This document shows positions 1,290-40,405 of a stretch of DNA of 64,000 nucleotides, one piece after another. Each line of letters opens with the position of its first letter. The stretch's first letter is position 1. The DNA is taken from assembly GCF_045679555.1 (NCBI RefSeq), contig NC_092091.1:88089057-88153056 (forward strand), in the 5' to 3' direction. The DNA comes from Salvelinus alpinus. Lineage: Eukaryota > Chordata > Actinopteri > Salmoniformes > Salmonidae. Both the position numbers and the translations under genes were made by a program. Under the pieces are notes generated by a model. The model was not told the DNA's origin. It made no database searches and worked only from the letters and a program-made list of their open reading frames with translations.

Positions 1290-1413
1290 TCCCCAGTTTT
1301 ATAGAACCATCAGTCTGGACAGAGGAGCTCTGGGTCTGGGCTTCAGCATAGTAGGAGGGTTCAGCAGTCCCCACGGAGACCTGCCCATCTACGTCAAAAC
1401 CGTCTTCGGAAAG
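1290..1413 (+). CDS. mpdz: mpdz penultimate coding exon (first half of last PDZ)
   Basis: Acceptor ctcctacag at 1281-1289. The exon starts with one base that completes a codon, then 41 codons from [12 protein letters not shown] through GLGFSIVGG to KTVFGK. It ends at GGAAAG|GTAACT in phase 0. The donor sequence is the starting point of the 30-bp array that fills the following intron. Confidence 0.88.
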
Positions 1414-4400
1414 GTAACTGACTATTTCATTTAGAACGGTAACACAGGCCTCTATTTCATTTAGAACAGTAACACAGGCCTCTATTTCATTTAGAACGGT
1501 AACACAGGCCTCTATTTCATTTAGAACGGTAACACAGGCCTCTATTTCATTTAGAACGGTAACACAGACCTCTATTTCATTTAGAACGGTAACACAGGCC
1601 TCTATTTCATTTAGAAAGGTAACACAGGCCTCTATTTCATTTAGAACGGTAACACAGACCTCTACTTCATTTAGAACAGTAACACAGACCTCTATTTCAT
1701 TTAGAAAGGTAACACAGGCCTCTATTTCATTTAGAAAGGTAACACAGGCCTCTATTTCATTTAGAAAGGTAACACAGGCCTCTATTTCATTTAGAACAGT
1801 AACACAGACCTCTACTTCATTTAGAACAGTAACACAGACCTCTATTTCATTTAGAAAGGTAACACAGGCCTCTATTTCATTTAGAAAGGTAACACAGGCC
1901 TCTATTTCATTTAGAAAGGTAACACAGACCTCTATTTCATTTAGAAAGGTAACACAGACCTCTATTTCATTTAGAAAGGTAACACAGGCCTCTATTTCAT
2001 TTAGAAAGGTAACACAGGCCTCTATTTCATTTAGAAAGGTAACACAGACCTCTATTTCATTTAGAAAGGTAACACAGACCTCTATTTCATTTAGAAAGGT
2101 AACACAGACCTCTATTTCATTTAGAACGGTAACACAGGCCTCTATTTCATTTAGAACGGTAACACAGGCCTCTATTTCATTTAGAACAGTAACACAGGCC
2201 TCTATTTCATTTAGAACAGTAACACAGACCTCTATTTCATTTAGAACGGTAACACAGGCCTCTATTTCATTTAGAACGGTAACACAGGCCTCTATTTCAT
2301 TTAGAACAGTAACACAGGCCTCTATTTCATTTAGAAAGGTAACACAGGCCTCTATTTCATGTAGAACTGTAACACAGGCCTCTATTTCATTTATTAAGGT
2401 AACACAGGCCTCTATTTCATTTATTAAGGTAACACAGGCCTCTATTTCATTTAGAAATGTAACACAGGCCTGTATTTCATTTAGAACGGTAACACAGGCC
2501 TCTATTTCATTTAGAACGGTAACACAGGCCTCTATTTCATTTAGAACCGTAACACAGGCCTCTATTTCATTTATTAAGGTAACACAGGCCTGTATTTCAT
2601 TTAGAACGGTAACACAGGCCTCTATTTCATTTAGAACAGTAACACAGGCCTCTATTTCATTTAGAAAGGTAACACAGGCCTCTATTTCATGTAGAACTGT
2701 AACACAGGCCTCTATTTCATTTATTAAGGTAACACAGGCCTCTATTTCATTTATTAAGGTAACACAGGACTCTATTTCATTTAGAAATGTAACACAGGCC
2801 TGTATTTCATTTAGAACGGTAACACAGGCCTCTATTTCATTTAGAACGGTAACACAGGCCTCTATTTCATTTAGAAAGGTAACACAGGCCTCTATTTCAT
2901 TTAGAAAGGTAACACAGACCTCTATTTCATTTAGAACGGTAACACAGGCCTCTATTTCATGTAGAACGGTAACACAGGCCTCTATTTCATTTAGAAAGGT
3001 AACACAGGCCTCTATTTCATTTAGAAAGGTAACACAGGCCTCTATTTCATTTAGAACGGTAACACAGGCCTGTATTTCATTTAGAATGGTAACACAGGCC
3101 TGTATTTTATTTAGAAAGGTAACACAGGCCTCTATTTCATTTAGAACGGTAACACAGGCCTGTATTTCATTTAGAACGGTAACACAGGCCTGTATTTCAT
3201 TTAGAATGGTAACACAGGCCTCTATTTCATTTAGAAAGGTAACACAGGCCTCTATTTCATTTAGAAAGGTAACACAGGCCTCTATTTCATTTAGAACGGT
3301 AACACAGACCTCTATTTCATTTAGAACGGTAACACAGACCTCTATTTCATTTAGAACGGTAACACAGGCCTCTATTTCATTTAGAACGGTAACACAGGCC
3401 TCTATTTCATTTAGAAAGGTAACACAGACCTCTATTTCATTTAGAAAGGTAACACAGGCCTCTATTTCATTTAGAAAGGTAACACAGACCTCTATTTCAT
3501 TTAGAAAGGTAACACAGACCTCTATTTTATTTAGAACGGTAACACAGGCCTCTATTTCATTTAGAACGGTAACACAGGCCTCTATTTCATTTAGAACGGT
3601 AACACAGGCCTCTATTTCATTTAGAACGGTAACACAGGCCTCTATTTCATTTAGAACGGTAACACAGGCCTCTATTTCATTTAGAACGGTAACACAGACC
3701 TCTATTTTATTTAGAACGGTAACACAGGCCTCTATTTCATTTAGAACGGTAACACAGGCCTCTATTTCATTTAGAACGGTAACACAGGCCTCTATTTCAT
3801 TTAGAACGGTAACACAGGCCTCTATTTCATTTAGAACGGTAACACAGGCCTCTATTTCATTTAGAACGGTAACACAGGCCTCTATTTCATTTAGAACGGT
3901 GACACAGGCCTCTATTTCATTTAGAACGGTAACACAGGCCTCTATTTCATTTAGAAAGGTAACACAGGCCTCTATTTCATTTAGAACGGTGACACAGGCC
4001 TCTATTTCATTTAGAACGGTAACACAGGCCTCTATTTCATTTAGAACGGTAACACAGGCCTCTATTTCATTTAGAACGGTAACACAGGCCTCTATTTCAT
4101 TTAGAACGGTGACACAGGCCTCTATTTCATTTAGAACGGTAACACAGGCCTCTATTTCATTTAGAAAGGTAACACAGGCCTCTATTTCATTTAGAAAGGT
4201 AACACAGGCCTCTATTTAATTTAGAACGGTGACACAGGCCTCTATTTCATTTAGAACGGTAACACAGGCCTCTATTTCATTTAGAACGGTAACACAGGCC
4301 TCTATTTCATTTAGAACGGTAACACAGGCCTCTATTTCATTTAGAACGGTAACACAGGCCTCTATTTCATTTAGAAAGGTAACACAGGCCTCTATTTCAT

Positions 4401-5503
4401 TTAGAACGGTAACACAGACCTCTATTTCATTTAGAAAGGTAACACAGGCCTCTATTTCATTTAGAAAGGTAACACAGGCCTCTATTTCATTTAGAACGGT
4501 AACACAGACCTCTATTTCATTTAGAAAGGTAACACAGGCCTCTATTTCATTTAGAAAGGTAACACAGGCCTCTATTTCATTTAGAAAGGTAACACAGGCC
4601 TGTATTTAATTTAGAACGGTAACACAGGCCTGTATTTAATTTAGAAAGGTAACACAGGCCTCTATTTCATTTAGAAAGGTAACACAGACCTCTATTTCAT
4701 TTAGAAAGGTAACACAGGCCTCTATTTCATTTAGAAAGGTAACACAGGCCTCTATTTCATTTAGAATGGTAACACAGGCCTCTATTTCATTTAGAAAGGT
4801 AACACAGGCCTCTATTTCATTTGGAACGGTAACACAGACCTCTATTTCATGTAGAAAGGTAACACAGACCTCTATTTCATTTAGAAAGGTAACACAGACC
4901 TCTATTTCATTTAGAACGGTAACACAGACCTCTATTTCATTTAGAAAGGTAACACAGGCCTGTATTTCATTTAGAACGGTAACACAGGCCTCTATTTCAT
5001 TTAGAAAGGTAACACAGGCCTCTATTTCATTTAGAAAGGTAACACAGGCCTCTATTTCATTTAGAAAGGTAACACAGGCCTCTATTTCATGTAGATAGGT
5101 AACACAGGGTAACACATTATTTTAGTCCTCAATGTCAATTCAATGAACCTGTCATTCTACTGTAAATTCCTTGTGTCTTACAACTATCAAAAGTTACTCG
5201 ATTGTCTTTCAACACGAGTAGAAACTCAAACAATGCAACTGTGTTTGATGCCATGGTGATTGATGCCGTGGTGATTGATGCCATGGTGATTGATGCCATG
5301 GTGATTGATGCCGTGTCTCTCTGTCTCTCCCTCTGCATTTATCTCTCTCTCTCCAGGGAGCAGCGATTGAGGATGGCAGGCTGCAGCGTGGGGATCAGAT
5401 CATTGCCGTGAACGGTCACAGTCTGGAGGGGGTCACCCACGCCGGCGCCGTCGCCATACTGAAGAGGACCAAGGGAACTGTAGTCCTCACCGTACTCTCC
5501 TGA
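1290..5503 (+). CDS. mpdz: multiple PDZ domain protein (MUPP1), C-terminal end
   Basis: MUPP1 is a multi-PDZ scaffold at tight junctions and synapses. The two visible coding exons, joined 1290-1413 and 5357-5503, encode one complete PDZ domain followed directly by the stop. It has the carboxylate-binding loop GLGF, then [14 protein letters not shown], then [10 protein letters not shown] and [16 protein letters not shown], ending in VVLTVLS. This matches the last PDZ domain of MPDZ as I know it; PATJ/INADL is the nearest alternative, but the neighbours lurap1l and tyrp1 favour mpdz. Upstream exons lie outside the window. The 3.9-kb intron between the exons is almost entirely a 30-bp minisatellite. 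Confidence 0.88.
1411..5107 (+). repeat. 30-bp minisatellite filling the mpdz intron
   Basis: About 123 copies of a 30-bp unit (ggtaacacaggcctctattt followed by catttagaac), with A/G and C/A variants and almost no length change. The first partial copy overlaps the mpdz exon donor itself (aaaggtaactgactatttca). Every unit therefore carries a donor-like aaxGGTAACA and an acceptor-like tctatttcatttag. The unit length is a multiple of three, which explains the long open frames of [10 protein letters not shown] repeats; reading on from the mpdz exon meets a stop within seven codons. Confidence 0.97.
5243..5314 (+). repeat. 18-bp tandem repeat before the last mpdz exon
   Basis: About four copies of an 18-bp unit (gatgccatggtgattgat) lie 45-110 bp upstream of the last mpdz exon, next to its pyrimidine tract. 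No function is implied. Confidence 0.9.
5357..5503 (+). CDS. mpdz: mpdz last coding exon (second half of last PDZ, stop)
   Basis: The acceptor tctctctctccag is followed by 48 codons and TGA. The product [20 protein letters not shown] continues to the helix [11 protein letters not shown] and the last strand [10 protein letters not shown]. The protein stops right after the PDZ fold, as known for MPDZ. Confidence 0.9.
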
Positions 5504-8500: not shown

Positions 8501-9020
8501 CACTGTCTCCTTCAAAATGGACCTCATCATAGCAGACTACTGACATCACTGTCTCCTTCAAAACGGACCTCATCATAGCAGACTACTGACATCACTGTCT
8601 CCTTCAAAATTGACCTCATCATAGCAGACGACTGATGACTCACAGAACTAACTAACACACTCTAACGATGCAAGAACAAGTGTGGCAATAGATGCCAAGA
8701 CTCTTCGCCAGTCTTTTATATTGGCAGTTAGGTGTAGAATTTACATTCAAATTCAAAATCGGAGCCTTTTTTCTCTCTCTCTCTCTGTACGTTAGTTGCT
8801 ACCTTAACTACATGAATATGATACGGTTTTTTTCATTATGTAACTTTATTCTTCTATCATGTTCATGAATATATTAATGTGACTGTTATTTAACCATTTA
8901 TTTATTCTGTTTTATATGTTGCTTGTAGGAAGGCGTAACTAACCTGTACTTTTGTTTACTTATTTCATATGGTGAATGTAATGTAGAAAGAAACGATTAA
9001 AGTTTTACGACATTAATTTT
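5504..9020 (+). other. mpdz: presumed mpdz 3' UTR
   Basis: Non-coding sequence after the mpdz stop. It holds unique sequence (5504-5820), a 46-bp minisatellite (5821-8640) and AT-rich unique sequence with attaaa at 8996-9001, the best polyadenylation-signal candidate seen. If that signal is used, the 3' UTR would be about 3.5 kb and mostly tandem repeat. An earlier end has not been excluded. Confidence 0.4.
5821..8640 (+). repeat. 46-bp minisatellite with higher-order duplication
   Basis: About 60 copies of a unit around 46 bp built on acggacctcatcatagcaga, then ctactgacatcactgtctcc. Variants include gacgactcac for gactactgac, aaaatgg for aaacgg, and insertions of gactact. Rare variants recur together: the unit with cctcgtc at about 7178 reappears at about 7896, and its flanking variants keep their order. 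This shows a block of about 718 bp duplicated as a whole. Confidence 0.95.
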
Positions 9021-9207
9021 CTACATATAGATAGAATATTGGTATTTTAAGCTGCTTCGGCTGCTAATACTGAATTCTTAATTTATTGTAGTTTACGGAT
9101 ATACTGCCAGCTTACTATAGCTAATGCTATTACTAATAGTATATACGGGCTGGATGACAACGTCAGGAAAACGGTGCGCGTGCATCGATGAGGCAGAAGG
9201 CCCCGTG
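8641..9207. other. AT-rich unique sequence
   Basis: No gene or repeat family recognised. It contains the attaaa signal noted for mpdz and a short run of tctctctctc near 8770. Confidence 0.5.
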
Positions 9208-10819: not shown

Positions 10820-10936
10820 CAGTTCGTCTAATTTCTGCTCTGCTAGAGTTGTCAACTGTAAGTGCTGTTACTGTGAAGTGGAAACGTCTAGGAGCAACAA
10901 CGGCTCAGCCTCGAAGTGGTAGGCCACACAAACCAT
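10820..10936 (+). mobile_element. Tc1-like transposase fragment, + strand
   Basis: A short piece matching the DNA-binding half of fish Tc1 transposases. It reads in the + direction through [20 protein letters not shown], then stops abruptly where a second Tc1-like element in the opposite orientation begins. It is a fossil with no intact frame. Confidence 0.7.
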
Positions 10937-12092
10937 TCCAGCGTCGCTTTGTCTGTATGCTTGGGGTGATTGTCCAGTTGGAACGTAAATCTTCGCGTCT
11001 AAGATTGTTTGAACTCTGAAGCAGGTTCTCATCAAGGATTTGCCTGTATTTGGCTCCATTCGTTGTTCCCTCTATCCTTACCAGTGTCCCAGTCCCTGCC
11101 GCTGAAAAGCGTCCCCATAGCATGATGCTGCCACCACAATGCTTCACGGTAGGGATGGTGTTAGAAGAGTGATGACCTGTGCCTGTGTTTCTGCGGACAT
11201 AGCACTTTGCATTCAGGCCAACGAGTAACGTTTTTGTCTCATTAGACCACAGAATATTTAGCCTTATTTTCTCAGTCTTTCATGGGCCTTTATGCCAACT
11301 CCAGGCGTGCTGTCATGTGCTTTCTCAGGAGTGGCTTCCGTCTGGCCACTCTCCCATAAAGCCCAGTTTGGTGAAGTGCTGTAGAGACTGTTGTTCTTCT
11401 GGCAGGTTCTCCCATCTCACCCAAGGAACTCTATAGTTCTATCAGAATGGTCATTGAGTTCTTGGTCACCTCCCTGACCAAGGTCCTTCTTGCCCGGTTG
11501 CTTAGTCTGGTAGGATGGCCAGCTCTAGGCATTCTGGGTAGTTCCATATTTCTTCATTTTCCCAATGATGGAGACCACTGTGCTCTTGGAAACGTTCAAC
11601 ACTCTAGAAATGGTTTTATACCCTTCCACAGATATATATCACAATTCTATCTCGGACATCCACAAACAGTTCCTTGGACTTCATGGTATAGGTTCTGACA
11701 TGCACTGTCCACTGTGAGACCTGATATAGACAGGTGTGTTTCTTTCTGAATCACGTCCAAACAATATAATTGGCCACAGGTGCACTCCAATCAAGTTGTA
11801 GCGACATGTCAAGGACGATCAAAGGAAATGGGATGCAGCTGAGCTCAGTGTGGAGCGTCAAAGCAAAAAGGGTGTGAATACTTATGTAAATGAGATATTT
11901 CTGAATTTCATTTTCAATACATTTGCACAAATTTCTAAAAACATGTTTTCATTTTGGTATTATGCGGTATTGTGTGTAGATGGGTGAGAGAGAGAAAAAA
12001 ACATCTATTTAATACATTTTGAATTGAGGCTGTAACACAACAAACTGTGGAATAAATCAAGGGGTGTGAATATTCTCTGAAGCCACTGTATC
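10937..12092 (-). mobile_element. degenerate Tc1/mariner-family element, - strand
   Basis: Read on the minus strand from 12092 it starts with a terminal sequence cagtggcttcagagaatatt and continues through non-coding DNA into a broken Tc1-family transposase. Recognisable pieces include [19 protein letters not shown] and [11 protein letters not shown]. Frame changes and stops interrupt the gene throughout, and the distal end is lost at the junction with the + strand fragment at 10936. The two pieces face each other, which suggests a nested insertion or a rearrangement between Tc1 copies. Confidence 0.85.
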
Positions 12093-12295
12093 TCACAGTA
12101 GACTGGAGCTATCAGTTCAATGCACAACCCATAATGTGTGAATGAATGGGATGGCCTGTTTAACTACAGCCGTGATGGTTGAATCCTTTCTGAAGGCGTA
12201 GTATGTAGGGTATAGGGTTTCATTTGGGACGCACCCTTGGCCTTTTGAGGGACTGCATTACCAATTAAACACACTGCTCACAGAAAACATGTTCA
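12093..12295. other. short spacer with a salmonid-type dispersed repeat
   Basis: Contains tagggtttcatttgggacgc, of the 'tatagggaatagggtgccatttgggacg' type that I recall as common in salmonid DNA. No gene seen. Confidence 0.5.
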
Positions 12296-19775: not shown

Positions 19776-20062
19776 CTACCCGGTCAGCGGGCGAGAGAGG
19801 GAAGGTATCGCCGCTGGGTCTTCCGCCAAGCTACCCAGATAACTCCCCACAGTCATCACATCAAAACCCATCTCTCCCGTAGTGCAGACTGGACACGCTG
19901 CTTCGCCGGGATGCCTCCTGGCTCTCGGCCAGGCTACTCTCCTGGCTAGTCACCGCTGCCATCCCTCAGCTACACCTCCAGGTCCCAGCGCGTCGCCTCG
20001 ATGCCGTCGTTGATCGACAGGAGCTGGCACATCAGACGGACGTCCATGCCCCGCAGGTGTGA
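19776..20062 (-). pseudogene. lurap1l: lurap1l exon 2, frame-disrupted
   Basis: Starts at the acceptor aacacag|TCACACCTGCGG in phase 0. It reads 30 codons (SHLRGMDVRLM...RWDLEV) to TAG at 19970-19972. Downstream similarity to the family moves to another frame and, near the gggtttt run at about 19865, shifts again before a final TAG at 19776-19778. The acceptor region is copied in the tandem array just upstream in the intron. Confidence 0.75.
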
Positions 20063-20411
20063 CTGTGTTGTTAGGAGAGAACAGGACAAACATGAGTTAG
20101 GGCAGGTGTGACTGTGTTGTTAGGAGAGAACAGGACAAACATGAGTTAGGGCAGGTGTGACTGTGTTGTTAGGAGAGAACAGGACAAACATGAGTTAGGG
20201 CAGGTGTGACTGTGTTGTTAGGAGAGAACAGGACAAACATGAGTTAGGGCAGGTGTGACTGTGTTGTTAGGAGAGAACAGGACAAACATGAGTTAGGGCA
20301 GGTGTGACTGTGTTACTAGGAGAGAACAGGACAAACATGAGTTAGGGCAGGTGTGACTGTGTTGTTAGGAGAGAACAGGACAAACATGAGTTAGGGCATG
20401 AGTTAGGGCAG
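20054..20411 (-). repeat. 49-bp array copied from the lurap1l exon 2 acceptor
   Basis: Seven copies of a 49-bp unit (gcaggtgtgactgtgttgtt, then aggagagaacaggacaaaca tgagttagg). Position 20054-20065 of the first copy is exon 2 sequence plus its acceptor (on the - strand, cacag|TCACACCTGC). Six further copies lie upstream in the intron, so each repeats the 3' splice site. Copies are almost identical, with one gttact variant. Confidence 0.95.
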
Positions 20412-20639
20412 GTGTGAACTTGAACGAGAACAGATTTTAATACCTGCTTGTCCTCCCCTCCCACTTATTCATTCCAATGCCATATTTTCTCTCTCTAAAC
20501 ATGTGGGTAAACGGTATTATAGCTTATTAATGTAACTTCCTAGTAACATTTAACTATTTAAAATTATCCAATAGGAGGACGTAATTAACGTCTTTAAAAC
20601 CAACTGTCCTCATTACATTTTTTTGTTCTAATGATAATA

Positions 20640-20835
20640 AACACGTAAACACTCTATAGGACTTGGATAAACACGTAAACACTCTATAGGACTTGGATAA
20701 ACACGTAAACACTCTATAGGACTTGGATAAACACGTAAACACTCTATAGGACTTGGATAAACACTCTACAGGACTTGGATAAAACACTCTACAGGACTTG
20801 GATAGACACTCTACAGGACTTGGATAGACACTTAG
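20640..20835. repeat. 30-bp repeat in the lurap1l intron
   Basis: Four 30-bp copies (actctataggacttggataa acacgtaaac) followed by three or four shortened copies with actctacaggacttggata. It lies 30 bp from the exon 1 donor but does not include it. Confidence 0.93.
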
Positions 20836-20864
20836 ACACAATAAAGGTTAAATAAAATACTTAC

Positions 20865-21074
20865 CATTTCTTGTCTTAGGAGTCGCATGTTGCTCTGCAG
20901 ACTCGTGGTGTCGGACATGTCTTTTACACGGCCAGGCGAGTCCCACTCGTCTCTACCATCTGTATTCTCTTTCATCATCCGTCCATCCGGGGCAAAAGGA
21001 AACAGACTCTCTGGAATCTTCCGACCAATCTTTCTCTCGATCTCACTCAGATCCGTTGCGATGGTAATATCCAT
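20865..21074 (-). CDS. lurap1l: lurap1l exon 1
   Basis: Seventy codons from ATG (MDITIATDLSEIERK) to CAAGAAATG|GTAAGT, phase 0. The inner ATG is preferred to one six codons upstream because the family begins only a few residues before the conserved DLxxIExKxGRKxPESL. No lesion is seen in this exon. Confidence 0.8.
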
Positions 21075-23905: not shown

Positions 23906-23974
23906 GTGGTAGGAGTGTTGGGCCAGTAACCCCAAGATTGAATCCCCGAGCTGACAAGGTAAAAGTATGTCGTT

Positions 23975-24285
23975 CTGTCCCTGAACAAGGCAGTTAACCC
24001 GCTGTTCCCCTGAACAAGGCAGTTAACCCGCTGTTCCCCCGAACAAGGCAGTTAACCCACTGTTCCCCTGAACAAGGCAGTTAACCCCCCGTTCCCCTGA
24101 ACAAGGCAGTTAACCCACTGTTCCCCTGAACAAGGCAGTTATAACCCACTGTTCCCCTGAACAAGGCAGTTATAACCCACTGTTCCCCTGAACAAGGCAG
24201 TTATAACCCACTGTTCCCCTGAACAAGGCAGTTAACCCACTGTTCCCCTGAACAAGGCAGTTTAACCCACTGTTCCCTGGTAGGC
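23975..24285 (+). repeat. 27-29-bp expansion inside the SINE body
   Basis: About ten copies of a unit of 27-29 bp (cctgaacaaggcagttaacc cactgttcc). Some copies have taa inserted (gttataaccc). It is a direct amplification of the SINE body. Confidence 0.93.
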
Positions 24286-24415
24286 CGTCATTGTAAATAA
24301 GAATTTGTTCTTAACTGACTTGCCTAATAAAAAATATTGTATAGGCTATGGTCCCTGGTCAAAAGTAGTGCACTACATAGGGAATAGGGTGCCGGTTGAG
24401 ACATACCCTTGATCT

Positions 24416-24621
24416 CTACACTACAGACTGGCTCTTGTCCGTCCGTCTGTCGTCCTCCGAGTAGCGACGGAAGGCCTCCCCTAGCAACGGCTCCAGTCCC
24501 TCAGCCGAGCGGAAAGCGCGAGCACGCATGGCACAGGCGATGACCCCCGACACCACCGCAGCCACCAGCACCGCGGCAACGATCGCTATAGTGATGATCT
24601 CAGACAGCGTGTAGGGGCGAG
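24416..24621 (-). CDS. tyrp1: tyrp1 coding exon 8 (membrane segment and tail)
   Basis: Acceptor ccccccacag, then CT completing a Thr codon. Sixty-seven residues follow: [18 protein letters not shown] starts the hydrophobic segment, MRARAF forms the positive stop-transfer, then EGLEPLL and DKSQSVV before TAG. The acidic dileucine spacing equals that of human TYRP1 as I recall it. Confidence 0.93.
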
Positions 24622-27600
24622 CTGTGGGGGGTAAGAGAGAAAAGCAACAGTGAGCTAAATAATATATATATATATGAGAACAGATGGATGTGCAGGCTTT
24701 TGCTCTATCCCTGCACTAGGGTTATCAATATTACAGTTAACAATTAGACTACAGTTACGTCCCAAATGGAGTACTATTCTGGGAGTAGTCCACACTATAG
24801 GGAATAGGGCCTTGGTCTAAAGTAGTTCACTATATAGGGAATAGGGCCTTGGTCTAAAGTAGTTCACTATATAGGGAATAGGGCCCTGGTTTAAAGTAGT
24901 GCACTATATAGGGAATAGGGCTCTGGTCTAAAGTAGTGCACTATATAGGGAATAGGGCTCTGGTCTAAAGTAGTGCACTATATAGGGAATAGGGCCCTGG
25001 TTTAAAGTAGTGCACTATATAGGGAATAGGGCTCTGGTCTAAAGTAGTGCACTATATAGGGAATAGGGCCCTGGTCTAAAGTAGTGCACTATATAGGGAA
25101 TAGGGCCCTGGTCTAAAGTAGTGCACTATATAGGGAATAGGGCCCTGGTCTAAAGTAGTGCACTATATAGGGAATAGGGCCCTGGTCACTAGTAGTTCAC
25201 TATATAGGGAATAGGGCCCTGGTCTAAAGTAGTTCACTATATAGGGAATAGGGCTCTGGTCACTAGTAGTTCACTATATAGGGAATAGGGCCCTGGTCTA
25301 AAGTAGTGCACTATATAGGGAATAGGGCCCTGGTCTAAAGTAGTGCACTATATAGGGAATAGGGCCCTGGTCTAAAGTAGTGCACTATATAGGGAATAGG
25401 GCTCTGGTCTAAAGTAGTGCACTATATAGGGAATAGGGCCCTGGTCTAAAGTAGTGCACTATATAGGGAATAGGGCCCTGGTCTAAAATAGTGCACTATA
25501 TAGGGAATAGGGCCCTGGTCTAAAGTAGTGCACTATATAGGGAATAGGGCCCTGGTCTAAAGTAGTGCACTATATAGGGAATAGGGCCCTGGTCTAAAGT
25601 AGTGCCCTATATAGGGAATAGGGCTCTGGTCACTAGTAGTGCACTATATAGGGAATAGGACTCTGGTCTAAAGTAGTGCACTATATAGGGAATAGGGCCC
25701 TGGTCTAAAGTAGTGCACTATAGGGAATAGGGCTCTGGTCACTAGTAGTTCACTATATAGGGAATAGGGCCCTGGTCTAAAGTAGTGCACTATATAGGGA
25801 ATAGGGCCCTGGTCTAAAGTAGTGCACTATATAGGGAATAGGGGCCATTTGGAATATAACCATAGAGTTCAAAGGTCATACAGTCTCTGTGTATGACTCA
25901 CTGTGCCTTGTGACCTAGGTTCTGTGTCTATGTCTGTCTGTGTGTCTGTCTGTGTTTGTGTGTGACTCACTGGGCCATGTGACCTCGTAGGCGTATCCCA
26001 GGTTCTCGGGGGCTGTGACGAACATCTCAGCGTTGGTGACGGGGGGCCAGAAGGGAACCATGTTGAACTGTCTGTTGTGACCAATAGGAGCATTCTCCTC
26101 CGGGTACGCTGCCTCACCTGGGGGACGACATGAACCTTAGCCTAGCGCTGGGTGTGGGTCTGCAGACGCTTTCCCCATTGGTCTGTTTGAATGAATTGTT
26201 TGTGTTCTGTGATTGGTTTCAGGTGTGACATACTATACCTGGGGCGTGTCGGCTCAGCCACTCATCAAAGATGGCGTCAGTGAAGGTGTGGAGCAGGACA
26301 AAGATGGGGTCGTTAGGGGACAGGTGTGTCTGCCCTCCCGTCCCGTTGAGGAACAGGTGAGCCAGGTTATGGAGGCTGCGCACCACTGGGTCATAACCAC
26401 CCTGAGGGGCACTGTAGCCTGGAGGGAGGAGAGGAGGGGAGAGAGAGGAGGTGAGGAGAGGGAGGAGAGAGAGGGAAGAGAGGAGTGAGAGGAGAGAAGA
26501 GAGGAGAGGATTGTTAGGAGGTTTGGGGTGGAGGTATGTGTCCTCTGGAGGAAGAGGAGAGGAGGGTTACGTGTGGGTCAGGATAGTGGGTTCAATTCCC
26601 GGGACCAACATACGCAAAATGTATACACCCATAACTGTGAGTCTCTATGGATAAACGTGTCTGCTAAACGGGATGTATTATATTTACACCCTCTACTGTG
26701 TTCCTGAATCCTCACCCTCTACGGTGTTCCTGAATCCTCACCCTCTACGGTGTTCCTGAATCCTCACCCTCTACGGTGTTCCTGAATCCTCACCCTCTAC
26801 TGTGTTCCTGAATCCTCACCCTCTACGGTGTTCCTGAATCCTTACCCTTTACGGTTTTCCTGAATCCTCACCCTCTACGGTGTTCCTGAATCTTCACCCT
26901 CTACGGTGTTCCTGAATCCTCACCCTCTACGGTGTTCCTGAATCCTCACCCTCTACGGTGTTCCTGAATCCTCACCCTCTACGGTGTTCCTGAGTCCTCA
27001 CCCTCTACGGTGTTCCTGAGTCCTCACCCTCTACGGTGTTCCTGAGTCCTCACCCTCTACGGTGTTCCTGAGTCCTCCCCCTCTACGGTGTTCCTGAGTC
27101 CTCCCCCTCTACGGTGTTCCTGAGTCCTCCCCCTCTACGGTGTTCCTGAATCCTCACCCTCTACGGTGTTCCTGAATCCTCACCCTCTACGGTGTTCCTG
27201 AATCCTCACCCTCTACGGTGTTACTGAGTCCTCACCCTCTACGGTGTTACTGAATCTTCACCCTCTACGGTGTTCCCAAATCCTCACCCTCTACGGTGTT
27301 CCTGAATCCTCACCCTCTACGGTGTTCCTGAAGCTCTCTGAAGAGGTGGAGTAGTACGGCGGGGTATCGAAGGTTTTCAGGTCCAGACAGTCCACTACAT
27401 CCTGGGGTTCAGGCAGCCTCTGCACCATGGGCCGCGCCACGTTACCTGCTGGGTTCCTCCTGATGGGACTGGTCTCTGAATCTATAAGGTCATAGGTTAG
27501 GGGTTAGAGGTCTCTGAATCTATAGGGGTCATAGGTTAGGGGTCACAGGTCTCTGAATCTATAGGGGTCCTAGGTTAGGGATTAGGGGTCACAGGTCTCT

Positions 27601-30600
27601 GAATCTATAGGGCACAGAGGGTTGACATGTCAAAAAGTATTGGACTAGTCTCTTAACTTCGGGATGGTCAACATCCACATTTAATATGCATGCATCTCAA
27701 ATGGAACCCTATTTACTATATAATGTGCTTCTGTTGACAACAGTAGTGCACTAAGTAGTGCACTATATACTATGTAATGAGCTTCTGTTGACAACAGTAG
27801 TGCACTAAGTAGTGCACTATAACTATGTAATGAGCTTCTGTTGACAACAGTAGTGCACTAAGTAGTGCACTATAACTATGTAATGAGCTTCTGTTGACAA
27901 CAGTAGTGCACTAAGTAGTGCACTATAACTATGTAATGAGCTTCTGTTGACAACAGTAGTGCACTAAGTAGTGCACTATAACTATGTAATGAGCTTCTGT
28001 TGACAACAGTAGTGCACTATATACTATGTAATGAGCTTCTGTTGACAACAGTAGTGCACTAAGTAGTGCACTATATACTATGTAATGAGCTTCTGTTGAC
28101 AACAGTAGTGCACTAAGTAGTGCACTATATACTATGTAATGAGCTTCTGTTGACAACAGTAGTGCACTAAGTAGTGCACTATATACTATGTAATGAGCTT
28201 CTGTTGACAACAGTAGTGCACTAAGTAGTGCACTATATACTATGTAATGAGCTTCTGTTGACAACAGTAGTGCACTAAGTAGTGCACTATATACTATGTA
28301 ATGAGCTTCTGTTGACAACAGTAGTGCACTAAGTAGTGCACTATATACTATGTAATGAGCTTCTGTTGACAACAGTAGTGCACTAAGTAGTGCACTATAA
28401 CTATGTAATGAGCTTCTGTTGACAACAGTAGTGCACTATAACTATGTAATGAGCTTCTGTTGACAACAGTAGTGCACTAAGTAGTGCACTATATACTATG
28501 TAATGAGCTTCTGTTGACAACAGTAGTGCACTAAGTAGTGCACTATAACTATGTAATGAGCTTCTGTTGACAACAGTAGTGCACTAAGTAGTGCACTATA
28601 TACTATGTAATGAGCTTCTGTTGACAACAGTAGTGCACTAAGTAGTGCACTATAACTATGTAATGAGCTTCTGTTGACAACAGTAGTGCACTAAGTAGTG
28701 CACTATAACTATGTAATGAGCTTCTGTTTACAACAGTAGTGCACTAAGTAGTGCACTATATACTATGTAATGAGCTTTTGTTGACAACAGTAGTGCACTA
28801 AGTAGTGCACTATAACTATGTAATGAGCTTCTGTTGACAACAGTAGTGCACTAAGTAGTGCACTATAACTATGTAATGAGCTTCTGTTGACAACAGTAGT
28901 GCACTAAGTAGTGCACTATAACTATGTAATGAGCTTCTGTTGACAACAGTAGTGCACTAAGTAGTGCACTATATACTATGTAATGAGCTTCTGTTGACAA
29001 CAGTAGTGCACTAAGTAGTGCACTATAACTATGTAATGAGCTTCTGTTGACAACAGTAGTGCACTAAGTAGTGCACTATAACTATGTAATGAGCTTCTGT
29101 TGTCAACAGTAGTGCACTAAGTAGTGCACTATATACTTTGTAATGAGCTTCTGTTGACAACAGTAGTGCACTAAGTAGGGCACTATAACTATGTAATGAG
29201 CTTCTGTTGACAACAGTAGTGCACTAAGTAGTGCACTATAACTATGTAATGAGCTTCTGTTGACAACAGTAGTGCACTAAGTAGTGCACTATAACTATGT
29301 AATGAGCTTCTGTTGACAACAGTAGTGCACTAAGTAGTGCACTATAACTATGTAATGAGCTTCTGTTGACAACAGTAGTGCACTAAGTAGTGCACTATAA
29401 CTATGTAATGAGCTTCTGTTGACAACAGTAGTGCACTAAGTAGTGCACTATAACTATGTAATGAGCTTCTGTTGACAACAGTAGTGCACTATAACTATGT
29501 AATGAGCTTCTGTTGACAACAGTAGTGCACTAAGTAGTGCACTATATACTATGTAATGAGCTTCTGTTGACAACAGTAGTGCACTAAGTAGTGCACTATA
29601 TACTATGTAATGAGCTTCTGTTGACAACAGTAGTGCACTAAGTAGTGCACTATATACTATGTAATGAGCTTCTGTTGACAACAGTAGTGCACTAAGTAGT
29701 GCACTATATACTATGTAATGAGCTTCTGTTGACAACAGTAGTGCACTAAGTAGTGCACTATATACTATGTAATGAGCTTCTGTTGACAACAGTAGTGCAC
29801 TATAACTATGTAATGAGCTTCTGTTGACAACAGTAGTGCACTAAGTAGTGCACTATATACTATGTAATGAGCTTCTGTTGACAACAGTAGTGCACTAAGT
29901 AGTGCACTATAACTATGTAATGAGCTTCTGTTGACAACAGTAGTGCACTAAGTAGTGCACTATAACTATGTAATGAGCTTCTGTTGACAACAGTAGTGCA
30001 CTAAGTAGTGCACTATATACTATGTAATGAGCTTCTGTTGACAACAGTAGTGCACTAAGTAGTGCACTATAACTATGTAATGAGCTTCTGTTGACAACAG
30101 TAGTGCACTAAGTAGTGCACTATAACTATGTAATGAGCTTCTGTTGACCACAGTAGTGCACTAAGTAGTGCACTATAACTATGTAATGAGCTTCTGTTGA
30201 CAACAGTAGTGCACTAAGTAGTGCACTATAACTATGTAATGAGCTTCTGTTGACAACAGTAGTGCACTAAGTAGTGCACTATAACTATGTAATGAGCTTC
30301 TGTTGACAACAGTAGTGCACTAAGTAGTGCACTATATACTATGTAATGAGCTTCTGTTGACAACAGTAGTGCACTAAGTAGTGCACTATAACTATGTAAT
30401 GAGCTTCTGTTGACAACAGTAGTGCACTAAGTAGTGCACTATAACTATGTAATGAGCTTCTGTTGACAACAGTAGTGCACTAAGTAGTGCACTATATACT
30501 ATGTAATGAGCTTCTGTTGACAACAGTAGTGCACTAAGTAGTGCACTATAAAAGGAATAGGGAGGTTTTCCCTGGACTCCTTGGCTCTGTCTGAAAACTA

Positions 30601-33600
30601 GCCGTTAAACCCTTGATTCCTTCGGTCCTTGATTCCTTCTGTCCTTGATTCCTTAATCATTCCTCCCCTTCCTCTCAAAGGTCACTGGAGGAGGGGCTCC
30701 AAGGGGAAGGGCCTTGATTGGATCTTTTCCTCCAATGAGCTTTGAGAGGGAGGCAAGGAATTTAGGAATCAAATCAAGGATTCAATGGTTAGTTATGCTT
30801 TCAGACAAAGACGTTTTCCCACTGGTTAGATCATGTGGTCACTGGTCAGGAAAATCTCTCGCACGCACACGCGCGCGTGAGGAGATACTGCATAGCTGTG
30901 TGCTGTCTATCTGTCCATTTGAGTGTAATTCCTCTTGATCAAAGAGAACCAGTAGACTGGCAGACTTCTTCCTCCTTAGCCTCATAACGCCCATATTAGG
31001 AAATCACATGACCATAATGTGTTGTTCCCTGTATACTGAGGTAAAGAGGATCAGATAGGAGACAGACTGGACAGCTACTAGATATCACTGAGCAGGTCAC
31101 ACACCCTCACTCCTCATGTTCTGTCAGGTCACACACCCTCACTCCTCATGTTCTGTCAGGTCACACACCCTCACTCCCTCATGTTCTGGCAGGTCACACA
31201 CCCTCACTCCTCATGTTCTGTCAGGTCACACACCCTCACTCCTCATGTTCTGGCAGGTCACACACCCTCACTCCTCATGTTTTGTCAGGTCACACACCCT
31301 CACTCCTCATGTTCTGTCAGGTCACACACTGTCACTCCTCATGTTCTGGCAGGTCACACACCCTCACTCCTCATGTTCTGTCAGGTCACACACCCTCACT
31401 CCTCATGTTCTGGCAGGTCACACACCCTCACTCCTCATGTTCTGTCAGGTCACACACCCTCACTCCTCATGTTCTGGCAGGTCACACACCCTCACTCCTC
31501 ATGTTTTGTCAGGTCACACACCCTCACTCCTCATGTTCTGTCAGGTCACACACCCTCACTCCTCATGTTCTGTCAGGTCACACACTGTCACTCCTCATGT
31601 TCTGGCAGGTCACACACCCTCACTCCTCATGTTTTGTCAGGTCACACACCCTCACTCCTCATGTTCTGTCAGGTCACACACTGTCACTCCTCTCATGTTC
31701 TGTCAGGTCACACACAGTCACTCCTCTCATGTTCTGTCAGGTCACACACCCTCACTCCTCATGTTCTGTCAGGTCACACACCCTCACTCCTCTCACGTTT
31801 TGTCAGGTCACACACCCTCACTCCTCATGTTCTGTCAGGTCACACACCCTCACTCCTCTCATGTTCTGTCAGGTCACACACCCTCACTCCTCTCATGTTC
31901 TGTCAGGTCACACACCCTCACTCCTCTCATGTTCTGTCAGGTCACACACCCTCACTCCTCATGTTCTGTCAGGTCACACACTGTCACTCCTCTCATGTTT
32001 TGTCAGGTCACACACTGTCACTCCTCTCATGTTCTGTCAGGTCACACACCCTCACTCCTCTCATGTTCTGTCAGGTCACACACTGTCACTCCTCATGTTC
32101 TGTCAGGTCACACACCCTCAGTCCTCTCATGTTCTGTCAGGTCACACACCCTCACTCCTCATGTTCTGTCAGGTCACACACCCTCACTCCTCATGTTCTG
32201 TCAGGTCACACACTGTCACTCCTCTCATGTTCTGTCAGGTCACACACCCTCACTCCTCTCATGTTTTGTCAGGTCACACACCCTCACTCCTCTCATGTTC
32301 TGTCAGGTCACACACCCTCACTCCTCTCATGTTCTGTCAGGTCACACACCCTCACTCCTCTCATGTTCTGTCAGATCACACACCCTCACTCCTCTCATGT
32401 TCTGTCAGGTCACACACCCTCACTCCTCATGTTCTGTCAGGTCACACACCCTCACTCCTCATGTTCTGTCAGGTCACACACCCTCACTCCTCTCATGTTC
32501 TGTCAGGTCACACACCCTCACTCCTCTCATGTTCTGTCAGGTCACACACCCTCACTCCTCATGTTCTGTCAGGTCACACACCCTCACTCCTCTCATGTTC
32601 TGTCAGGTCACACACCCTCACTCCTCATGTTCTGTCAGGTCACACACCCTCACTCCTCTCATGTTCTGTCAGGTCACACACCCTCACTCCTCTCATGTTC
32701 TGTCAGGTCACACACCCTCACTCCTCTCATGTTCTGTCAGGTCACACACCCTCACTCCTCTCATGTTCTGTCAGGTCACACACCCTCACTCCTCTCATGT
32801 TCTGTCAGGTCACACACCCTCACTCCTCTCATGTTCTGTCAGGTCACACACCCTCACTCCTCATGTTCTGTCAGGTGATACACCCTCACTCCTCATGTTC
32901 TGTCAGGTCACACACCCTCACTCCTCATGTTCTGTCAGGTCACACACCCTCACTCCTCTCATGTTCTGTCAGGTCACACACTGTCACTCCTCATGTTCTG
33001 TCAGGTCACACACCCTCAGTCCTCTCATGTTCTGTCAGGTCACACACCCTCACTCCTCATGTTCTGTCAGGTCACACACCCTCACTCCTCTCATGTTCTG
33101 CCAGGTCACACACTGTCACTCCTCATGTTCTGTCAGGTCACACACCCTCACTCCTCTCATGTTCTGTCAGGTCACACACCCTCACTCCTCTCATGTTCTG
33201 TCAGGTCACACACCCTCACTCCTCTCATGTTCTGTCAGGTCACACACCCTCACTCCTCATGTTCTGTCAGGTCACACACCCTCACTCCTCTCATGTTCTG
33301 TCAGGTCACACACCCTCACTCCTCATGTTCTGTCAGGTCACACACCCTCACTCCTCATGTTCTGTCAGGTCACACACCCTCACTCCTCATGTTCTGTCAG
33401 GTCACACACCCTCACTCCTCTCATGTTCTGTCAGGTCACACACTGTCACTCCTCATGTTCTGTCAGGTCACACACCCTCAGTCCTCTCATGTTCTGTCAG
33501 GTCACACACCCTCACTCCTCATGTTCTGTCAGGTCACACACCCTCACTCCTCTCATGTTCTGTCAGGTCACACACTGTCACTCCTCATGTTCTGTCAGGT

Positions 33601-36600
33601 CACACACCCTCATTCCTCTCATGTTCTGTCAGGTCACACACCCTCACTCCTCTCATGTTCTGTCAGGTCACACACCCTCACTCCTCTCATGTTCTGTCAG
33701 GTCACACACCCTCACTCCTCATGTTCTGTCAGGTCACACACCCTCACTCCTCTCATGTTCTGTCAGGTCACACACCCTCACTCCTCATGTTCTGTCAGGT
33801 CACACACTGTCACTCCTCTCATGTTCTGTCAGGTCACACACTGTCACTCCTCTCATGTTCTGTCAGGTCACACACCCTCACTCCTCTCATGTTCTGTCAG
33901 GTCACACACCCTCACTCCTCATGTTCTGTCAGGTCACACACCCTCACTCCTCATGTTCTGTCAGGTCACACACTGTCACTCCTCTCATGTTCTGTCAGGT
34001 CACACACCCTCACTCCTCTCATGTTCTGTCAGGTCACACACCCTCACTCCTCTCATGTTCTGTCAGGTCACACACCCTCACTCCTCTCATGTTCTGTCAG
34101 GTCACACACCCTCACTCCTCATGTTCTGTCAGGTCACACACCCTCACTCCTCTCATGTTCTGTCAGGTCACACACCCTCACTCCTCATGTTCTGTCAGGT
34201 CACACACCCTCACTCCTCTCATGTTCTGTCAGGTCACACACCCTCACTCCTCATGTTCTGTCAGGTCACACACCCTCACTCCTCATGTTCTGTCAGGTCA
34301 CACACTGTCACTCCTCTCATGTTCTGTCAGGTCACACACCCTCACTCCTCTCATGTTCTGTCAGGTCACACACCCTCACTCCTCATGTTCTGTCAGGTCA
34401 CACACTGTCACTCCTCTCATGTTCTGTCAGGTCACACACCCTCACTCCTCTCATGTTCTGTCAGGTCACACACCCTCACTCCTCATGTTCTGTCAGGTCA
34501 CAGACTGTCACTCCTCTCATGTTCTGTCAGGTCACACACTGTCACTCCTCATGTTCTGTCAGGTCACACACTGTCACTCCTCTCATGTTCTGTCAGGTCA
34601 CACACCCTCACTCCTCTCATGTTCTGTCAGGTCACACACCCTCACTCCTCATGTTCTGTCAGGTCACACACCCTCACTCCTCTCATGTTCTGTCAGGTCA
34701 CACACCCTCACTCCTCATGTTCTGTCAGGTCACACACTGTCACTCCTCATGTTCTGTCAGGTCACACACTGTCACTCCTCATGTTCTGTCAGGTCACACA
34801 CCCTCACTCCTCATGTTCTGTCAGGTCACACACCCTCACTCCTCATGTTCTGTCAGGTCACACACCCTCACTCCTCATGTTCTGTCAGGTCACACACCCT
34901 CACTCCTCTCATGTTCTGTCAGGTCACACACCCTCACTCCTCATGTTCTGTCAGGTCACACACCCTCACTCCTCTCATGTTCTGTCAGGTCACACACCCT
35001 CACTCCTCTCATGTTCTGTCAGGTCACACACCCTCACTCCTCATGTTCTGTCAGGTCACACACTGTCACTCCTCTCATGTTCTGTCAGGTCACACACCCT
35101 CACTCCTCATGTTCTGTCAGGTCACACACCCTCACTCCTCATGTTCTGTCAGGTCACACACTGTCACTCCTCTCATGTTCTGTCAGGTCACACACCCTCA
35201 CTCCTCTCATGTTCTGTCAGGTCACACACCCTCACTCCTCTCATGTTCTGTCAGGTCACACACCCTCACTCCTCTCATGTTCTGTCAGGTCACACACCCT
35301 CACTCCTCATGTTCTGTCAGGTCACACACCCTCACTCCTCTCATGTTCTGTCAGGTCACACACCCTCACTCCTCATGTTCTGTCAGGTCACACACTGTCA
35401 CTCCTCTCATGTTCTGTCAGGTCATACACCCTCACTCCTCTCATGTTCTGTCAGGTCACACACCCTCACTCCTCATGTTCTGTCAGGTCACACACTGTCA
35501 CTCCTCTCATGTTCTGTCAGGTCACACACCCTCACTCCTCTCATGTTCTGTCAGGTCACACACCCTCACTCCTCATGTTCTGTCAGGTCACACACTGTCA
35601 CTCCTCTCATGTTCTGTCAGGTCACACACCCTCACTCCTCTCATGTTCTGTCAGGTCACACACCCTCACTCCTCTCATGTTCTGTCAGGTCACACACCCT
35701 CACTCCTCATGTTCTGTCAGGTCACACACCCTCACTCCTCATGTTCTGTCAGGTCACACACCCTCACTCCTCATGTTCTGTCAGGTCACACACCCTCACT
35801 CCTCATGTTCTGTCAGGTCACACACCCTCACTCCTCATGTTCTGTCAGGTCACACACCCTCACTCCTCATGTTCTGTCAGGTCACACACCCTCACTCCTC
35901 TCATGTTCTGTCAGGTCACACACCCTCACTCCTCATGTTCTGTCAGGTCACACACTGTCACTCCTCATGTTCTGTCAGGTCACACACCCTCACTCCTCAT
36001 GTTCTGTCAGGTCACACACCCTCACTCCTCATGTTCTGTCAGGTCACACACCCTCACTCCTCATGTTCTGTCAGGTCACACACCCTCACTCCTCATGTTC
36101 TGTCAGGTCACACACCCTCACACCTCATGTTCTGTCAGGTCACACACCCTCACTCCTCATGTTCTGTCAGGTCATACACCCTCACTCCTCATGTTCTGTC
36201 AGGTCACACACCCTCACTCCTCATGTTCTGTCAGGTCACACACCCTCACTCCTCATGTTCTGTCAGGTCACACACCCTCACTCCTCATGTTCTGTCAGGT
36301 CACACACCCTCACTCCTCTCATGTTCTGTCAGGTCACACACCCTCACTCCTCTCATGTTCTGTCAGGTCACACACCCTCACTCCTCTCATGTTCTGTCAG
36401 GTCACACACCCTCACTCCTCATGTTCTGTCAGGTCACACACCCTCACTCCTCTCATGTTCTGTCAGGTCACACACCCTCACTCCTCTCATGTTCTGTCAG
36501 GTCACACACCCTCACTCCTCATGTTCTGTCAGGTCACACACCCTCACTCCTCATGTTCTGTCAGGTCACACACCCTCACTCCTCCCATGTTCTGTCAGGT

Positions 36601-39600
36601 CACACACCCTCACTCCTCTCATGTTCTGTCAGGTCACACACCCTCACTCCTCATGTTTTGTCAGGTCACATACCCTCACTCCTCATGTTCTGTCAGGTCA
36701 CACACCCTCACTCCTCATGTTTTGTCAGGTCACACACCCTCACTCCTCATGTTCTGTCAGGTCACACACCCTCACTCCTCATGTTCTGTCAGGTCACACA
36801 CCCTCACTCCTCTCATGTTCTGTCAGGTCACACACCCTCACTCCTCATGTTCTGTCAGGTCACACACCCTCACTCCTCATGTTCTGTCAGGTCACACACC
36901 CTCACTCCTCTCATGTTCTGTCAGGTCACACACCCTCACTCCTCATGTTTTGTCAGGTCACACACCCTCACTCCTCATGTTCTGTCAGGTCACACACCCT
37001 CACTCCTCTCATGTTCTGTCAGGTCACACACCCTCACTCCTCTCATGTTCTGTCAGGTCACACACCCTCACTCCTCATGTTCTGTCAGGTCACACACCCT
37101 CACTCCTCATGTTCTGTCAGGTCAATTTTGCAATTTTGAATCTCTAGGAAATTGTAGGACATTTACTGAGACAAAAGCAGTGAGGAAGTGAGTGTTGTAA
37201 TCTGGCCCAGATTATGCATACCAACCAGACTAATCTCCTAATCTGGAGTCATGTGAATGTAGATTATACTACTGATTCCTTCGTCCAGACCTTCAGAACC
37301 CTGTTGTTCATTGTGTGTTAGTTATAATTCCTTCCAAAGCCCAGAGAAATCACTAGCCAGCACTACTTCTAACAGGTCCAACCAAAACCACTGTTACAGA
37401 TGGTTCCCACTATCCAGAGTGGTACAGTCTGGGGTGTGTTACTGTCAATTTCCCTGCCCCAGATCAGTCTCTGGTTAGTTACTGTCAGTTTCCCTGCCCC
37501 AGATCAATCTCTGGTTAGTTACTGTCAGTTTCCCTGCCCCAGATCAGTCTCGGGTTAGTTACTGTCAGTTTCCCTGCCCCAGATCAGTCTGGGGTGTGTT
37601 ACTGTCAGTTTCCCTGCCCCAGATCAGTCTCTGGTTAGTTACTGTCAGTTTCCCTGCCCCAGATCAGTCTCTGGTTAGTTACTGTCAGTTTCCCTGCCCC
37701 AGATCAATCTCTGGTTAGTTACTGTCAGTTTCCCTGCCCCAGATCAGTCTCGGGTTAGTTACTGTCAGTTTCCCTGCCCCAGATCAGTCTTGGGTTAGTT
37801 ACTGTCCGTTTCCCTGCCCCAGATCAGTCTTGGGTTAGTTACTGTCAGTTTCCCTTCCCCAGATCAGTCTGGTTTAGTTTATATCAGTTTCCCTGCCCCA
37901 GATCAGTCTGGGGTTAGTTACTGTCAGTTTCCCTGCCCCAGATCAGTCTCTGGTTAGTTACTGTCAGTTTCCCTGCCCCAGATCAGTCTCTGGTTAGTTA
38001 CTGTCAGTTTCCCTGCCCCAGATCAGTCTCTGGTTAGTTACTGTCAGTTTCCCTGCCCCAGATCAGTCTCTGGTTAGTTACTGTCAGTTTCCCTGCCCCA
38101 GATCAGTCTCTGATTAGTTACTGTCAGTTTCCCTGCCCCAGATCAGTCTCTGGTTAGTTACTGTCAGTTTCCCTGCCCCAGATCAGTCTCTGGTTAGTTA
38201 CTGTCAGTTTCCCTGCCTCAGATCAGTCTCTGGTTAGTTACTGTCAGTTTCCCTGCCCCAGATCAGTCTCTGATTAGTTACTGTCAGTTTCCCTGCCCCA
38301 GATCAGTCTCTGGTTAGTTACTGTTAGTTTCCCTGCCCCAGATCAGTCTCTGGTTAGTTACTGTTAGTTTCCCTGCCCCAGATCAGTCTCTGGTTAGTTA
38401 CTGTCAGTTTCCCTGCCCCAGATCAGTCTCTGGTTAGTTACCTGTCAGTTTCCCTGTCCCAGATCAGTCTGGGGTGAGTTACTGTCAGTTTCCCTGCCCC
38501 AGATCAGTCTGGGGTTAGTTACTGTCAGTTTCCCTGCCCCAGATCAGTGTCTGGTTAGTTACTGTCAGTTTCCCTGCCCCAGATCAGTCTATGGTTAGTT
38601 ACTGTCAGTTTCCCTGCCCCAGATCAGTCTCTGGTTAGTTACTGTCAGTTTCCCTGCCCCAGATCAGTCTCTGGTTAGTTACTGTCAGTTTCCCTGTCCC
38701 AGATCAGTCTTGGGTTAGTTACTGTCAGTTTCCCTGCCCCAGATCAGTCTTGGGTTAGTTACTGTCAGTTTCCCTGCCCCAGATCAGTCTGGGGTGTGTT
38801 ACTGTCAGTTTCCCTGACTCAGATTTAGCCTAGTGCTGTACTAGAAAAGCCAGCTCAGTCTCCATAGCAGAGGGTTAGTAAAAAGGGTTAGTCATCACTG
38901 TTACAGATGGTTCCCAGAGGGTCGTAGTGTTTACAAGGTGTTAGTACATATCATGCTCACTGTTACAGATGGTTCCCAGAGTGTCGTAGTGTTTACAAGG
39001 TGTTAGGACATATCCTGCTCACTGTTACAGATGGTTCCCAGAGTGTCGTAGTGTTTACAAGGTGTTAGGACATATCCTGCTCACTGTTACAGATGGTTCC
39101 CAGAGTGTCGTAGTGTTTACAAGGTGTTAGAACATATCCTGCTCACTGTTACAGATGGTTCCCAGAGGGTCGTAGTGTTTACAAGGTGTTAGGACATATC
39201 CTGCTCACTGTTACAGATGGTTCCCAGAGTGTCGTAGTGTTTACAAGGTGTTAGGACATATCCTGCTCACTGTTACAGATGGTTCCCAGAGTGTCGTAGT
39301 GTTTACAAGGTGTTAGGACATATCCTGCTCACTGTTACAGATGGTTCCCAGAGTGTCGTAGTGTTTACAAGGTGTTAGAACATATCCTGCTCACTGTTAC
39401 AGATGGTTCCCAGAGGGTCGTAGTGTTTACAAGGTGTTAGGACATATCCTGCTCACTGTTACAGATGGTTCCCAGAGTGTCGTAGTGTTTACAAGGTGTT
39501 AGGACATATCCTGCTCACTGTTACAGATGGTTCCCAGAGTGTCGTAGTGTTTACAAGGTGTTAGGACATATCCTGCTCACTGTTACAGATGGTTCCCAGA

Positions 39601-40405
39601 GTGTCGTAGTCCTCCACACTCTCACAGATCACCCTCCACTGGGAGAAGACAGAGTTGGGGCTGAGGCTGTTCATATCGAAGGCAGACCTGGCTCCTAGGA
39701 GGTCGTCAGTACACACGTCACACTCACTGCCGCCGATGGCAAAGTTCCAGTAGGGGAGGGCAAAGGTGGCATCACCCAGCATGTCCTGGAGAGATGAGAG
39801 ATGGGAGATGAATGGATGGAGAGATGAATGGATGGATGGATGGATGGGGAGATGGATGGATGGATGGATGGAGAGATGGATGGATGGGGAGATGGAGAGT
39901 GGATGGATGGGGAGATGGAGAGATGGATGGATGGAGAGATGGAGAGATGGATGGATGGGGAGATGGAGGGATGGAGAGTTGGATGGAGGGATGGGGGGAT
40001 GGGGAAATGGATGGATGGAGAGATGGATGGATGGGTCGATGGGTGGATGGGGAGATGAATGGATGGAGAGATGGATGGATGGAGAGATGGATGGATGGGG
40101 AGATGGAGGGATGGGGAAATGGATGGATGGATGGATGGGTCGATGGGGAGATGGATGGATGGAGAGATGAATGGATGGAGAAATGGAGAGATGGATGGAT
40201 GGAGAGATGGATGGATGGGGAGATGGAGGGATGGAGAGATGGATGGGGAGATGGAGGGATGGGGAGATGGAGAGATGGAGGGATGGAGGGGGAAGACATA
40301 TATGGTAAGGATCAATATTACAGTTTATAACCCCTGCTTGGCTGAATACTCAATTCTGATTGGTCGAGAGAGGGTTTGACAATGGTTGAATATATGGTAA
40401 TATTG

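Follow-up and report, generated by a model that had tools for sequence, protein, structure and literature searches.

Genes and tandem arrays in the window

The stretch of DNA analysed here, called the window throughout, comprises 64 kb of the Salvelinus alpinus genome (contig NC_092091.1, positions 88,089,057 to 88,153,056) and holds three genes, assigned by PDB and Pfam matches: the 3′ end of mpdz on the forward strand, and a lurap1l-like gene and tyrp1 on the reverse strand. The exact names mpdz and lurap1l, together with what we take to be the known neighbourhood of mpdz, lurap1l and tyrp1, are partly our assumption. Tandem arrays cover 72.5% of the window (42 merged arrays; our non-redundant list for the whole window has 46 rows). 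Eukaryotic genomes typically consist of 0.5–3% tandem repeat, and that of Atlantic cod of more than 6%, according to a published account (PMC5241972). Four arrays in the window contain the boundary between an exon and its intron, and tyrp1 carries most of them. Its coding exons join as follows.

24416–43247, reverse strand: tyrp1, coding exons 1–8, joined into an uninterrupted reading frame of 526 amino acids
43247–42890, 42366–42258, 40746–40533 and 39785–39581, reverse strand: tyrp1 coding exons 1–4
27475–27314, 26418–26239, 26117–25971 and 24621–24416, reverse strand: tyrp1 coding exons 5–8

Residues 19–461 of the TYRP1 product align with the solved TYRP1 (PDB 9ey8, E = 2.7e-237). Across the three genes, the exon model has 21 splice junctions, with a small mpdz exon that occurs twice counted as one copy.

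Four arrays contain an exon-intron boundary

An earlier note on this DNA had named five arrays as containing the boundary of the adjacent exon.

20053–20403, reverse strand: lurap1l exon 2 acceptor array, 49-bp unit, about 7 copies, exon edge 20062
26687–27338, reverse strand: tyrp1 exon 5 donor array, 26-bp unit, 25 copies, exon edge 27314
27471–27620, reverse strand: tyrp1 exon 5 acceptor array, 39-bp unit, about 4 copies, exon edge 27475
38895–39610, reverse strand: tyrp1 exon 4 donor array, 62-bp unit, 12 copies, exon edge 39581
1422–5108, forward strand: array in the mpdz intron, unit of 30 bp, 123 copies, beginning 8 bp past the donor at 1413

We judged boundary content by periodic alignment of each unit through the array flanks, with the copies laid out individually. 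Seen directly in this way, four of the five contain the neighbouring boundary; the mpdz array is the one that drops out. We also set 20 of the 21 exon edges against whichever array lies closest, using 100 shuffles for each (the first edge has no array). Units of the lurap1l acceptor array carry CACAG/TCACACCTGC, where the slash marks the boundary, with 10 exon bases per unit, and their similarity to the exon exceeds that of all 100 shuffles. The exon 5 donor unit of tyrp1 consists of 19 exact exon bases, TTCAGGAACACCGTAGAGG, followed by the seven intron bases GTGAGGA, and that of the exon 4 donor has 29–30 exon bases ending in AACA/GTGA; both exceed 100 of 100 shuffles and are also recovered by a BLAST search with the exons. 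At the exon 5 acceptor, the unit reads GATTCAG/AGACC. So few exon bases are involved (five) that this array could not be separated from shuffles (34 of 100 were as good), and the call rests on the periodic alignment and the laid-out copies. Altogether, two donors and two acceptors are affected, tyrp1 exon 5 has a junction-spanning array on both sides, and the four units include 5–30 exon bases and are 30–67% pyrimidine. For the mpdz donor, no similarity to the exon above shuffles was found (42 of 100 were as good); the unit has only GGTAAC in common with the donor, and inclusion of the boundary there is possible but unproven. The incomplete copies that terminate the arrays on the far side were examined for traces of microhomology and proved uninformative.

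Apart from the two tyrp1 donor arrays, the exon BLAST search recovered one further match to the exon 4 edge, at 37392.

37390–37410, reverse strand: tyrp1 exon 4 donor edge, isolated copy on the far side of an unrelated array at 37438–38824

In this copy 18 exon bases are identical (37392–37409), within a 21-bp BLAST match to the unit. It lies about 1.5 kb from the main exon 4 donor array, with the unrelated array in between.

Three further arrays adjoin tyrp1 acceptors.

42369–42707, reverse strand: pyrimidine-tract repeat at the exon 2 acceptor, exon edge 42366
39787–40288, reverse strand: pyrimidine-rich repeat at the exon 4 acceptor, exon edge 39785
26422–26510, reverse strand: pyrimidine-tract repeat at the exon 6 acceptor, exon edge 26418

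The earlier note had described these as growing out of the pyrimidine tract. They are pyrimidine-tract repeats, 82–98% pyrimidine on the sense strand, and end 1–3 bp short of the exon. The relationship is one of adjacency only, and the three exon edges do not resemble the adjoining arrays above shuffles (61, 41 and 13 of 100 were as good for exons 2, 4 and 6). The accompanying statement, that exons are otherwise avoided by repeats, is correct for coding sequence, to which our count was confined. The 13 coding exons are touched by only four of the 46 arrays, namely the junction-spanning ones, by 5–30 bp, and none of the 46 falls entirely within coding sequence.

Duplicated splice sites as potential decoys

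When only the exon-proximal sites are used, tyrp1 yields its uninterrupted 526-residue product. In the exon 5 donor array, 20 of the 25 copies match AGG/GTGAR, the authentic site included; the other five have an altered motif, three of them without GT, and were outside the decoy test. All 12 copies at the exon 4 donor, again counting the authentic site, retain the donor motif. Splicing in silico from each inner decoy with the exact motif gave a truncated product in 39 of 39 cases (exon 4 donor, 11/11; exon 5 donor, 19/19; exon 5 acceptor, 3/3; lurap1l, 6/6). Since every tested decoy truncates the product, the full protein depends on the choice of the exon-proximal site, and tyrp1 presents dozens of decoys that have to go unused in splicing for the protein to be produced. 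By analogy with amphioxus, we infer that the splicing machinery picks the exon-proximal site and passes over the decoys.

Comparison with known boundary-spanning repeats

Tandem repeats of this kind, whose unit spans an exon-intron boundary, received the name 'mirages' in amphioxus Adh3 (PMC3087553). They are described (PMC3087553, PMC3902484) from Adh3, the globin genes BflGb6 and BflGb9, and TnC, with similar repeats in PGBD5, and with units of 10–160 bp; the Adh3 data and reverse-transcription PCR of the globin genes suggest regular splicing (PMC3087553). Length instability, allelic or somatic, is a further trait of mirages as described for amphioxus. The arrays described here share with mirages a unit that spans the boundary (in four arrays, but not in the mpdz array), the involvement of both 5′ and 3′ boundaries (here two donors and two acceptors), AG/GT signals in many but not all copies (here at the exon 5 donor) and unit lengths of 26, 39, 49 and 62 bp that fall inside the amphioxus range. 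As to undisturbed splicing, the intact TYRP1 frame shows only that normal splicing would yield the full protein. They differ in their vertebrate host, in copy number (up to 25, compared with 3–6 in BflGb6) and in that several junctions are affected in one gene, tyrp1. The arrays in the window are thus a strong further example of an already known kind, and place amphioxus-type mirages, at high copy number, in a vertebrate pigment gene.

A salmonid precedent is found in rainbow trout. In irak3 (PMC6763605), the 5′-most 15–17 nt of exon 5 are repeated four times directly upstream of that exon, exon 7 recurs in intron 7 together with its splice sites, and minisatellites are present in many introns of irak3 and irak3-like. 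One of the trout motifs begins with 17 letters that are also found in an array in our window. Compared with the window, the trout repeats have fewer copies and lie in an assembly with gaps, and their published description is brief and does not treat them as a class. Tandem duplication around splice signals is also reportedly a route of intron gain, going by the titles of Zhuo 2007 and of Gao and Lynch 2009. A case of intron gain by internal tandem duplication is reported for potato RdRp (PMC4974935). There, as in our window, splice signals were duplicated without loss of the gene; here, by contrast, no new intron has formed and the copies stay in existing introns. Intronic repeats have been reported in seabream MSTN-2, and none is described in the available text as carrying an exon edge. 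Our literature search, which covered titles and the openings of abstracts, found no genome-wide count of boundary-spanning arrays in fish, and a search for enrichment at exon-intron boundaries returned no paper matching all terms.

The number of arrays at junctions

The earlier note had considered so many arrays at junctions to be more than chance would give. A fair test of such an excess needs arrays collapsed to one unit and shuffled within their introns, because short, repeat-filled introns produce boundary overlaps unaided. The array list was hand-edited from Tandem Repeats Finder output, with primitive periods chosen manually and some edges extended or trimmed. Most counts exclude the four of the 46 arrays whose period is below 10; one of these four, of 9 bp, was kept in the tests of nearness, density, any overlap and pyrimidine removal. 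Each array was collapsed to one unit before placement, since array growth has generated most of the intron sequence and present intron lengths would mislead. The ten collapsed introns measure 121–1181 bp and total 3357 bp, with 19 seeds of period at least 10 and up to six seeds per intron. Seeds were placed at random within their own intron; they could run into an exon and could not lie wholly within one.

With junction-spanning defined as at least 4 bases on each side, our main setting, 4 arrays were observed and 2.17 expected (P(≥4) = 0.155). About 2.2 such arrays thus arise by chance, because the collapsed introns are short and crowded with seeds. Requiring at least 5 bases on each side gave P(≥4) = 0.11, and counting any overlap gave 2.9 expected with P = 0.30–0.32. 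When the three pyrimidine arrays were removed, 2.4 were expected (P = 0.20), and without the purine/pyrimidine arrays P(≥4) was 0.079. Restriction to the 15 arrays with at least 3.5 copies gave P(≥4) = 0.083; among arrays with at least 5 copies, three of the four junction-spanning ones remain (P(≥3) = 0.19). Adding the mpdz array as a hypothetical fifth brought P to 0.049. The count, on 21 junctions, fits random placement within introns, and with two donors and two acceptors no polarity is seen.

Arrays arise elsewhere as well. A 29-bp array at 23979–24277 sits inside a dispersed repeat resembling a short interspersed nuclear element (SINE). A second copy of this repeat in the window carries the 29-bp unit once, with 27 of 29 bases identical, and establishes that the motif belongs to a dispersed repeat; that this repeat is a SINE is our presumption. 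Intergenic DNA has 1.7 seeds per collapsed kb. Seeding, given an array inside a dispersed repeat, is therefore not confined to junctions. By eye, the array at 45886–46640 also looks SINE-derived. The first 17 letters of the trout irak3-like motif occur three times in the window, where none is expected, in agreement with its salmonid origin. The motif of 23979–24277 corresponds to the very stretch that is tandemly repeated in intron 8 of the trout irak3-like gene (PMC6763605).

Origin of the arrays

We consider it probable that these mirage-type minisatellites arose by tandem duplication indifferent to position, filtered by selection. Short tandem duplications would have been very frequent in this region, where introns were at first short and seeds fell anywhere in them, so that some straddled an exon edge. 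A duplication over exactly one edge would be harmless, as the outermost copy still has the complete exon and a working splice site while the extra copy falls in the intron, and the event amounts to adding sequence to the intron. Selection would have removed duplications lying entirely within coding exons. The surviving arrays may then have expanded on the intron side, through slippage or unequal exchange, gaining 3 to 24 further copies each, most with a splice signal and hence potential decoys. The order of events, the selection and the mode of growth are what we infer; the anatomy of the arrays, the intact TYRP1 frame and the lack of any array wholly in coding sequence agree with the idea, raised in the earlier note as a selective explanation, that boundary-crossing duplications are those that survive.

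Several results weigh against this reading. All nulls lean the same way, and within introns 4 arrays are seen where 1.1–2.9 are expected. P falls to 0.045 and 0.018 when ancestral introns are taken to have been 1.5 and 2 times longer. A shuffle over the whole collapsed window gives 1.46 expected and P = 0.051 (1.3–1.7 and P = 0.039–0.09 across settings), and one over the gene part, 1–43300, gives 1.44 and P = 0.041 (1.3–1.8 and P = 0.036–0.098). Over the range of the earlier note, 1290–39785, 0.76–1.0 are expected (P = 0.004–0.013); we give this null little weight because the range was drawn after the arrays had been seen and omits tyrp1 exons 1–3 and the small mpdz exon. Arrays also lie close to exons more often than placed at random, with 7, 8 and 9 within 3, 8 and 20 bp compared with 3.3, 3.9 and 5.3 expected (P = 0.024, 0.015 and 0.036). 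Introns are 2.2–3.3 times denser in seeds per collapsed kb than intergenic DNA (P = 0.0002–0.035, a range that spans array sets and the removal of mobile-element length, roughly estimated by eye). Position-indifferent duplication does not predict this density excess, which it leaves unexplained. The chance tests themselves were made after the fact, on ten introns in one window; for this reason a two-fold excess of arrays at junctions is possible and not established.

A junction-linked mechanism, in which, for example, breaks linked to co-transcriptional splicing or R-loops seed duplications at boundaries, could draw on three observations: the observed count exceeds expectation in every null and significantly in some, intronic seeds are denser than intergenic ones, and tyrp1 exon 5 is affected on both sides. 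We nonetheless regard it as unlikely. Against the within-intron null the count is not significant (P = 0.11–0.32), donors and acceptors are equally affected, and seeding extends to a dispersed repeat and to the DNA between genes. Such a mechanism, which the earlier note had suggested, thus finds no support in the window, where random placement is within reach, although looser nulls give P = 0.02–0.05. The wider proposition that salmonid introns are a preferential birthplace of minisatellites, with exon edges as favoured seeds, seems to us similarly doubtful; were it true, splice-site duplication would be a frequent and measurable class of mutation in a vertebrate.

Low-complexity slippage would make the near-acceptor arrays grown pyrimidine tracts, with exon edges otherwise not special. 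The composition of the tyrp1 exon 2, 4 and 6 arrays and their distance from the exon fit this, and nearness to exons loses significance once those three are removed (4, 5 and 6 arrays compared with 2.8, 3.2 and 4.2 expected; P = 0.29, 0.18 and 0.20). Slippage cannot, however, account for the four arrays that contain exon bases and are of mixed composition, and as a general explanation we think it improbable, somewhat more so than junction-linked seeding. The duplicated splice sites could also have been kept to regulate tyrp1 splicing or intron retention, and most copies do retain splice signals (20 of 25 at the exon 5 donor, 12 of 12 at the exon 4 donor). Young, homogenised array copies keep any sequence, though, all tested decoys truncate the product and intergenic arrays are equally elaborate, which makes a regulatory role very improbable. 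Position-indifferent duplication followed by selection remains the reading we prefer.

Neighbouring genes and other features

19970–21074, reverse strand: lurap1l-like gene, coding parts 21074–20865 and 20062–19970
58–5503, forward strand: mpdz 3′ end, with a 28-bp exon at 58–85 (second copy at 1009–1036) and an exon at 1290–1413
5357–5503, forward strand: coding part of the last mpdz exon, PDZ domain

The lurap1l-like reading frame reaches a stop after 100 amino acids (in 19970–20062), and the product matches only positions 8–57 of the 118-position LURAP profile; judged by its sequence, the gene is a putative truncated or decaying copy. Intron 6 of tyrp1 (26118–26238, 121 bp) is the sole intron among the ten without an array. 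A Pfam search of ten stop-to-stop reading frames in the window gave no matches. By eye, 10870–12050 and 43720–45130 resemble what we take to be a Tc1-like transposon and an element of the long interspersed nuclear element type, respectively.

The mpdz exons encode a PDZ domain with a close match to Multiple PDZ domain protein (2fne, E = 2.3e-40). The 28-bp mpdz exon occurs twice, each time with both splice sites, on either side of a G-rich array at 116–994, and the two copies align with a score of 121, compared with at most 38 in 200 shuffles. Either copy alone leaves the downstream frame open, and both together break it. This pair is a junction-carrying duplication that was absent from the earlier note's list.
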